A stretch of 32,588 bases of DNA from Myxococcales bacterium (GTDB taxonomy: Bacteria > Myxococcota_A > Polyangia > Polyangiales > Polyangiaceae), in assembly GCA_023248815.1 (NCBI GenBank), contig JAHFDV010000008.1, positions 1 to 32,588 on the forward strand, written 5' to 3'. Of the stretch, positions 11,359 through 14,634 are shown one piece after another. Numbering within the stretch: position 1 is the stretch's first letter; the number at the start of each line of letters is the position of its first letter. Below the pieces are notes generated by a model. It was given only the letters and a program-made list of their open reading frames with translations, was not told the DNA's origin and made no database searches. A program made the position numbers and the translations under genes.

Positions 11359-12105
11359 ATGGCCTCCAACCCGCTCGTGCTCGTCGCTGATGATGAATCC
11401 TCCATGCTCGCGCTCGTCGCCGAGCACCTCCGAGGATTGACGGATCCGAAGGTCGACGTCGTCGAAGCGACCGATGGCGAAGAGGCTCTGCGCCTCGCCC
11501 ACAGCCTTTTGCCCGACCTCGTCGTACTCGACGTCATGATGCCGAAGATGAGCGGCTGGGAAGTCTGCAAGCGCATCCGTGACGACGTAGGGCGCTTCGC
11601 GCACACGGGCGTGATCATGCTGACGGGCATCGACGAGAATCTCAATCACATGACGAGCCCGCTCTACGGCGCCGACTTCTACATCGACAAGCCGTTCGAC
11701 TTCTTCGAGCTCGACAAGAAAGTTCGCCAAGCGCTCCGCGACCGCGAAGGCCAGCGCAACAGCGTTTCGCGTCCGCCGCTCAACGGGCATGGAACGAGCG
11801 ACGGCGGCGCAAAGACGAAGAGCGCAGGAGCGAAAAAGGCTTCAAAAAAGCCTGCGGCAGAAAAGGCTGCAGCCTCGAAGCCCGTCGCGAAGAAAGCCGC
11901 GCCGAAGTTCGTCGCGAAAAAAACCGCTGCCAAGAAGACTGCTGCCAAGAAGCCCGCCTCAAAGAAAGCTCCCGCGAAGAAAGCGGTCGCTAAGAAGGCG
12001 CCAGTGAAGACGAAGGCCGTCGCGAAAAAAGCGCCCACCAAGAAGACTGCTGCCAAGAAGCCCGCCTCGAAGAAAGCGCCCGCGAAGAAAAAGTCGCGTC
12101 GCTGA
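11359..12105 (+). CDS. Response regulator (REC) fused to a C-terminal K/A/P-rich histone H1-like tail
   Basis: REC: VLVADDESSMLALVAEHL, LLPDLVVLDVMMPKMSGWEV, GVIMLTGID, FYIDKPFDFFEL. Tail of about 95-100 aa rich in KKAAAKK/KKPASKKAPAKK repeats. Confidence 0.9.
   Translation: MASNPLVLVADDESSMLALVAEHLRGLTDPKVDVVEATDGEEALRLAHSLLPDLVVLDVMMPKMSGWEVCKRIRDDVGRFAHTGVIMLTGIDENLNHMTSPLYGADFYIDKPFDFFELDKKVRQALRDREGQRNSVSRPPLNGHGTSDGGAKTKSAGAKKASKKPAAEKAAASKPVAKKAAPKFVAKKTAAKKTAAKKPASKKAPAKKAVAKKAPVKTKAVAKKAPTKKTAAKKPASKKAPAKKKSRR
11931..12090 (+). repeat. Near-perfect 52-bp direct repeat (11931-11982 and 12039-12090) inside the H1-like tail, 108-bp period
   Basis: Both copies begin caagaagactgctgccaagaagcccgcctc (30 bp identical), then (a/g)aagaaagc(t/g)cccgcgaagaaa: 50 of 52 positions identical. 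Confidence 0.9.
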
Positions 12106-12849: not shown

Positions 12850-13116
12850 TTACTCTTCGCCGTCGTCGTGGCGATTAGAGACGCTCGGACCGCCAAAAAT
12901 CGGGGGAACCCCCGGCGGTGGAGCCTTTTTCCCTGAACTCTTGCGGCCGCCCGACGACTTCTTCTTGGCAGCCGCTCTAGCAGGACCTTTTTTAGCAGCC
13001 TTTTTTGCAGGCTTCTTGGCGGCTTTGCGCTTCGTCGTCTTCTTCGCCGTCTTGCCAGCGGCCTTCTTCGTGGTCTTCGTCTTCTTCGCCTTCTTCGCAG
13101 TCTTCTTTGCAGCCAT
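12850..13116 (-). CDS. Small histone H1-like (K/A-rich) basic protein with short acidic C-terminus
   Basis: 88-aa ORF MAAKKTAKKAKKTKTTKKAAGKTAKKTTKRKAAKKPAKKAAKKG...NRHDDGEE; SD-like GGAGGA upstream on the minus strand. Confidence 0.8.
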   Translation of the reverse strand: MAAKKTAKKAKKTKTTKKAAGKTAKKTTKRKAAKKPAKKAAKKGPARAAAKKKSSGGRKSSGKKAPPPGVPPIFGGPSVSNRHDDGEE

Positions 13117-13304: not shown

Positions 13305-13692
13305 TGTGATCTCACTCGTGATGATCATCGACGAAAAAATGATCGCCGTCTCGATCGCGATTTGAAAAAAAATCGTACATCGCGTCAACGAATTAATCCT
13401 CGCACCGCACCCTCGCGATGAGCAAGTGAATGACGACACGCGAGTAGCGAAGACGAGTGACGAGCGACGATCGAGACGAACGATTCGAGACCGTCGACTC
13501 ACTCGACCGCCGATCGACGACGAGCTGCCGACACGTGGAGGGGTCGGCGCCGCAACCTTTCTGTCCCACTCCACCTCACCATCGGTCGACGCGTGCACCG
13601 TGACGCCGACGTGCGTAAGCGCGCTCCGCGTCGAGACGTCGCCGATCGCGCTTCGCGGCTTCGCGTTCGCGCCCCTGCTAGTCTCTCGACCG

Positions 13693-14634
13693 ATGACCCG
13701 GCGAATCGCAACGATTGATCTCGGAACCAACACCGTCCTCCTGCTCGTTGCCGAGCGCGCCGAAAGCGGTGAGCTCGTCCCCGTCGTCGAGAAGGCAACC
13801 ATCACTCGGCTGGGTCGGGGCGTCGACCGGACGCGACGACTCGCAGAGGATCGCGTCGCCGCAACGGTCGACTGTCTGAAGTCGTACGCCGCGATTGCTT
13901 CCGAGAACGGCGCGACGCTCGTCGATGCCGTCGCGACGAGTGCGATGCGCGACGCGGCGGGGGGGGAACCCATCTTTCAAGCCCTGCGCGATTGCGGCTC
14001 GAATTTGCGAGTGATCAGCGGACAAGAAGAAGCCGAGCTCACCTTCCTCGGAGCGACGAGCGGACTTCGCGTGAACGACGCGTCACCTGACGAACCGATG
14101 GTCGTCTTCGATGTGGGCGGCGGTAGTACCGAGTTCGTGCACGGCGTTCGCGAAGACGGACACGCGCGGATCGAGTCGGCGGTGAGCTTCGATGTCGGCA
14201 GCGTGCGTCTCACGGAGCGGCATCTCGAAGGGGATCCCCCGACGGCGCTCTCCACGGCGGCGCTCGCAGCCGATCTCGTCACGACCTTCACACCGCTTCG
14301 TCCAACGACGAAGCGCGTCGTCGGGGTCGCTGGGACGGTCACCACGCTCGCGGCGATTCATCTCGAGCTCGCCACGTACGAGGCCGCGCGCGTTCACGGG
14401 CTGCGACTCCCGCGCGAGACGGTGCGATCGATCGCCGCCCGCCTGAGAACGATGACGCTCGAGGACCGCATGCGCGTCGTCGGACTCGAAGCAGGACGCG
14501 CGGACGTGATCGTCGCGGGCGCCATGATCGTCGTCGCGGCGATGGATGCGCTCGACGCAAGCGAGCTCACCGTGTCCGATCGCGGAGTACGTTGGGGACT
14601 GGCCGAGCGCGCGCTTGCATCGCGAGAGCTCTGA
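13693..14634 (+). CDS. Exopolyphosphatase / Ppx-GppA family phosphatase
   Basis: MTRRIATIDLGTNTVLLLVAE, RLGRGVDRTRRLAEDRV, VDAVATSAMRDAAGG, VISGQEEAELTFLGA, VVFDVGGGSTEFVHG, VGVAGTVTTLAAI. Annotated from the internal Met, not the ORF-track start at 13426. Confidence 0.9.
   Translation: MTRRIATIDLGTNTVLLLVAERAESGELVPVVEKATITRLGRGVDRTRRLAEDRVAATVDCLKSYAAIASENGATLVDAVATSAMRDAAGGEPIFQALRDCGSNLRVISGQEEAELTFLGATSGLRVNDASPDEPMVVFDVGGGSTEFVHGVREDGHARIESAVSFDVGSVRLTERHLEGDPPTALSTAALAADLVTTFTPLRPTTKRVVGVAGTVTTLAAIHLELATYEAARVHGLRLPRETVRSIAARLRTMTLEDRMRVVGLEAGRADVIVAGAMIVVAAMDALDASELTVSDRGVRWGLAERALASREL

Follow-up and report, generated by a model that had tools for sequence, protein, structure and literature searches.

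The gene of interest lies on the forward strand of the window, by which we mean the whole 32,588-nucleotide stretch of the Myxococcales contig JAHFDV010000008.1 that was analysed, and its stop-free frame of 248 codons encodes a response regulator receiver (REC) domain followed by a lysine- and alanine-rich tail resembling that of histone H1 (Table 1). A Pfam search of the window protein recovered Response_reg (PF00072) at near full length, with a score of 75.7 bits (cut-off, 30.2). All catalytic residues are intact, with the receiver motifs AD11D12, VVLD58VMMP, MLT89G, and IDK111P all in place, and by sequence the closest solved chain is 1mvo, the PhoP receiver (2.3e-21). Besides Response_reg, the Pfam search returned only HC2 and an Extensin match below the cut-off, and no helix-turn-helix (HTH), winged-helix, or other output domain was found in the protein. 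The gene is, therefore, not a DNA-binding response regulator of the OmpR, NarL, or NtrC types, as the C-terminal winged-helix/HTH output domain of such regulators is absent. The preliminary description of this DNA had claimed a complete receiver core, a K/A/P tail of about 95-100 residues, and the lack of a conventional HTH output domain, and each of these points was borne out, the tail proving to be 98 residues long. It had also named a frameshift separating two genes as grounds for withdrawing the idea of a fusion; the receiver and tail share a single frame, both in the window and in all orthologues whose tails are readable, which rules out both a frameshift and a pair of separate genes.

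Table 1. Coordinates of the receiver gene and of its parts within the window.
Feature	Position	Strand	Basis
Complete gene, receiver plus H1-like tail, 248 aa	11359..12105	+	ATG start, TGA stop; full-length orthologues within the same family
Receiver (REC) domain, residues 7-122	11377..11724	+	Pfam PF00072, 4.1e-21, profile 1-110/111
Acidic pair D11 D12, Mg2+ site	11389..11394	+	Translation; D12 invariant in 107/107 orthologues
Phospho-acceptor Asp58 (VVLDVMMP)	11530..11532	+	Invariant in 107/107 orthologues
Switch T89 to catalytic K111, beta4-alpha4-beta5, signature TGIGExLNxMTSPLYGADxxxDKPF	11623..11691	+	107-sequence alignment
End of alpha5 and linker, residues 123-150	11725..11808	+	Translation; no domain match
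H1-like K/A/P tail, residues 151-248, with internal repeat KKTAAKKPASKKAPAKK occurring twice	11809..12102	+	HC2 match; tail in 56/56 family orthologues

About one third of the tail residues are lysine and about one third are alanine, and the net charge is approximately +38. The whole protein matches the HC2 profile ('Histone H1-like nucleoprotein', PF07382) over residues 153-245 at 40.5 bits, just over the cut-off of 40, and the tail alone scores 38.2 bits, HC2 being a low-complexity profile that also matches the tails of Obg, MetK, and PrmA. Four shuffled sequences of the same composition gave no match, which rules out a match from composition alone. Indeed, because the real order of residues matches the profile and shuffled orders do not, the spacing of KK pairs appears to count besides composition. 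No other run in the window is as rich in lysine, bar one other H1-like open reading frame (ORF) nearby, and the reading frame of the tail is not a product of chance. The AlphaFold prediction from the single sequence was of poor quality (mean pLDDT 50.5) and showed the tail entirely as coil; a fold search on this model added little.

The immediate neighbors of the gene in the window encode a uracil-DNA glycosylase-family protein and a DCC1-like oxidoreductase, and no histidine kinase gene was identified beside it among the window genes that were scanned. A Ppx/GppA phosphatase gene also lies near the receiver gene (13426-14634, +). The other H1-like ORF of the window (12850-13116, -) is separate, lies downstream of the receiver gene at a distance of approximately 750 bp, and encodes 88 residues without a Pfam match. 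Its relatives in two other genomes (G009 and G019) end in PPxGVPSMLGGAPTSxxGLDDGEE, and the window ORF has a related ending, a common C-terminus which suggests that these ORFs probably constitute a real family of small basic proteins. The data do not support an origin or operon shared with the receiver gene, as relatives of the ORF were detected in only two of 38 other genomes and the one in G019 lies approximately 280 kb from the receiver gene.

The receiver has a far wider distribution than a single genome. One clear orthologue each was detected in 47 of the 59 relatives searched, which rules out an orphan oddity, and a single strong match per genome was found in 143/241 genomes of the class and 103/237 genomes of the phylum. 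Nearly all of these sequences have the switch-region signature in common, with variants. The next best receivers in the window's own genome are just 35-37% identical, so the gene is single-copy in this assembly (84% complete). Judging from these sequence comparisons, one orthologous copy of the receiver gene occurs per genome throughout the phylum (Myxococcota, by inference); the whole gene was not found in several genomes of the window's family (e.g., G005, G213, and G235). In an alignment of 107 orthologues, the invariance of D12 and D58 is accompanied by T89 in 105/107 sequences (T or S in 107/107) and K111 in 106/106. Constancy extends to positions that are not catalytic, including I91 and N96 (both 107/107), G92 (106/107), and T99 and P101 (both 106/106), pointing to a conserved partner surface that would be independent of the tail. 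The sole departure at position 92 is the window protein itself, which has an aspartate (D92). Thirteen loci came from a scan of other phyla, and the seven that were read through all lacked such a tail; only ordinary receivers, DivK-like and others, were seen there.

A key result of the comparison is the distribution of the tail among these 107 orthologues, of which 56 come from the window's family (f1) and 51 from other families. The search for the receiver-tail architecture across the phylum that the preliminary description had recommended was run, and the absence of the tail from orthologues, which that description had regarded as fatal to its proposal, was not what emerged: a lysine-rich extension is present in 56/56 orthologues of the window's family, across more than 30 genera, and 51/51 orthologues of the other families end 0-22 residues beyond the receiver. 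Complete tails in the window's family range from 69 to 441 residues; three tails are cut by the end of a contig and, in one genome (G010), a run of unread bases falls within the extension. On a tree built from the receiver only (107 sequences, 123 columns), tail presence requires one change, compared with a mean of 36 for shuffled labels, with support of 98/96 and recovery in 98% of bootstrap trees. Because all outgroups that were read out are tail-less, this corresponds to one gain of the tail and no loss. Indeed, no genome was seen among the family genomes examined in which the receiver was kept and the tail lost; in one family member left off the tree (G023), whose assembly is a draft, an apparent frameshift interrupts the tail. 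As reconstructed on this tree, the tail was acquired a single time, in the ancestor of the window's family (probably Polyangiaceae), and has been retained since. Short lysine-rich ends also follow the receiver in families f8 (20-22 residues in G043, G050, and G056) and f31 (13 residues in G145), and these are possibly an early or independent step toward a tail.

The tail repeats are unalignable between genera, consistent with a turnover of repeat sequences in which composition is broadly kept, mostly at 20-36% lysine and 20-40% alanine and lower where an acidic stretch precedes the tail. Between close species, tail dN is generally lower than dS (for example, dN of 0.02-0.12 and dS of 0.13-0.35 in the g14 set) and, in the G218/G249 pair, is near dS, all of these tail values being rough owing to the alignment of repeats. 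The receiver is far more constrained than the tail, with dN of 0-0.04 versus dS of 0.05-0.29. As a control, the same strict tail test was applied within the family to neighboring genes, of which 1/267 carried a tail, versus 27/29 receivers; a general habit of genes in these genomes can thus be ruled out as the explanation of the fusion. Because this architecture is genuine, dates far back within one family, and has persisted there, the tail is likely functional. In several members, long D/E-rich acidic stretches lie between the receiver and the basic tail (G021:C149, G031:C1:10039557, G008:C70, and G014:C9), and the net tail charge is near zero or negative in some (-4 in G008, -14 in G031, and -40 in G021). 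By analogy with the acidic-basic layout of CarD, such acidic stretches may mask the tail.

The gene neighborhood provides a further link between tailed and tail-less receivers. In approximately 15 genomes of the window's family, the gene adjoins a cluster encoding a MoxR AAA ATPase, a DUF58 protein, and a BatA/vWA membrane protein, mostly in divergent orientation. In the tail-less families f2, f5, f9, and f10, the gene lies downstream of the MoxR-DUF58-Bat cluster in the same direction, nearly overlapping its neighbors in f5, and is followed nearby by genes for PpiC-type isomerases; BatD is also part of the cluster in tailed and tail-less genomes alike. A context common to both kinds of genomes supports true orthology, and it hints at an ancestral pathway. 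This linkage is absent in the window's genome and its nearest relatives.

Considering these findings together, we lean, with somewhat better than even confidence, toward a history in which an old single-domain receiver gained a disordered H1-like tail once, the tail serving as a non-specific tether to a polyanion, most likely nucleoid DNA. The receiver is found without a tail outside the family (51 orthologues) and so has an older output, and since most orthologues consist of the receiver only, that output is presumably protein contact. We, therefore, envisage a scheme in which a histidine kinase would phosphorylate Asp58 and the signal would be passed by protein contact through the highly conserved alpha4/beta5 face, as in the ancestral protein. 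The tail, in turn, would hold the protein non-specifically at the polyanion and would thereby set the place and local concentration at which the switch acts, and the long acidic linkers of several orthologues could tune or mask it. Binding of the tail to DNA or another polyanion is the natural guess from the KPAA-type tails of AlgP, PhaF, and CarD. The much greater age of the receiver relative to the tail, and the occurrence of like tails on Obg, MetK, and PrmA, lead us to favor a tether.

By these sequence patterns and analogies, a role in tethering or localization appears more likely than regulated compaction, in which phosphorylation of the receiver, by way of dimerization or a conformational change, would switch chromatin-like compaction or bridging of DNA by the tail and make the product a phospho-controlled nucleoid protein. 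The presence in one chain of an intact catalytic site and an H1-like tail, always paired within the family, is what such a switch would call for, and DNA binding by such tails is known from other bacteria (PMC9239181). However, orthologues in the rest of the phylum keep the receiver but have no tail, nothing folded exists in the tail that could read the state of the receiver, linker length is not conserved, and complete tails range from 69 to 441 residues. The protein is also a single gene product, perhaps of low abundance, and we consider regulated compaction unlikely. If true, it would represent a direct two-component input to chromosome architecture, fixed in one family.

Or, perhaps the tail binds RNA, ribosomes, or polyphosphate and not DNA, placing the regulator there. 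Like tails are found in the same bacteria on Obg, a GTPase associated with ribosomes, and on PrmA, which methylates a ribosomal protein; given the tails on Obg, MetK, and PrmA, none of them chromatin proteins, the tail may target RNA, ribosomes, or some other polyanion. In addition, the spacing of polyphosphate granules requires the KPAA tail of AlgP (PMC9239181). This alternative also strikes us as improbable, however, as the gene has no specific link to RNA or polyphosphate genes, and the Ppx/GppA gene of the window was not identified among the recurrent neighbors in relatives. Least credible is the view of the tail as a nearly neutral habit of the whole lineage, with K/A repeats that expand readily and confer solubility or no particular benefit: H1-like stretches do occur on unrelated proteins throughout the order, and the repeat units turn over rapidly and vary widely in length, but retention by every family orthologue without a tail-only loss, the rarity of tails on neighboring genes, and a tail dN generally below dS all speak against it.

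The window protein has partial counterparts among known systems. The tail-less orthologues correspond to single-domain regulators of the CheY, Spo0F, and DivK type, which are stand-alone receivers with intact catalytic residues, although the orthologues have an alpha4 signature of their own and the window's family differs further in its basic tail. The 51/51 tail-less orthologues thus qualify as single-domain response regulators, and the window protein, with its 98-residue tail, does not. RomR of Myxococcus xanthus likewise has a receiver followed by a long low-complexity region without an HTH, and its output region sets localization; that region is, however, Pro-rich/Glu-rich and not basic, and directs RomR to the cell poles (PMC3441718). 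CarD, also of M. xanthus, combines a folded interaction domain, an acidic stretch, and a basic disordered DNA-binding tail, a layout shared by those orthologues that have an acidic stretch, but instead of a phospho-receiver it has a folded part whose partners are RNA polymerase and CarG. CarD still works when its HMGA-like domain is swapped for the C-terminal region of H1 (PMC8156234). The window protein is not itself a CarD, as the RNA-polymerase-binding domain CarD_CdnL_TRCF had no Pfam match in it.

AlgP and PhaF of Pseudomonas carry C-terminal KPAA repeats with a composition like that of an H1 tail, and these tails have been proposed to link granules to the chromosome as tethers (PMC9239181). 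Their N-terminal parts are not receivers, whereas the N-terminus of the window protein is a receiver and not a phasin-type or helical one, which excludes it from that group. The chlamydial Hc2, whose profile the window tail matches, is a free nucleoprotein without a signaling domain, and it likewise varies by lysine-rich repeat units (PMC2848022).

No description of a protein with a receiver and an H1-like tail was found in the open-licence literature, and a genome-wide survey of myxobacterial two-component proteins does not mention histones (PMC4603909). The receiver and the H1-like tail are each known; a fusion of the two, fixed throughout a family, appears to be new. The phylum offers a natural experiment, in which one orthologous phospho-switch occurs with and without an H1-like tail, and swapping or deleting the tail would directly test the contribution of such a basic disordered region to a signaling protein. 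If the tail does couple the receiver to the nucleoid, it would connect two-component signaling to chromosome organization while bypassing sequence-specific DNA binding.

Two further groups of sequences deserve mention. No description was found of a phylum-wide family of single-domain receivers with the alpha4 signature, such as the one observed here (e.g., G048:C1:5031547-5031942 and G040:C6:59167-59529), in which the alpha4 residues N96, T99, and P101 are invariant and the genes are often linked to MoxR-DUF58-Bat operons. K/A-rich H1-like tails also occur on unrelated proteins of the order, including the Obg GTPase, MetK, PrmA, TopA, AHSA1-type proteins, and DUF1801 (L090, L250, L254, L268, L256, L258, and L251), and an Obg GTPase with such a tail is encoded in the window's own genome. 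The same genome contains a short ORF (L093) in which the motif CRCGSKLCRGSM, resembling a post-SET segment (an identity that is tentative), is followed by an H1-like tail.
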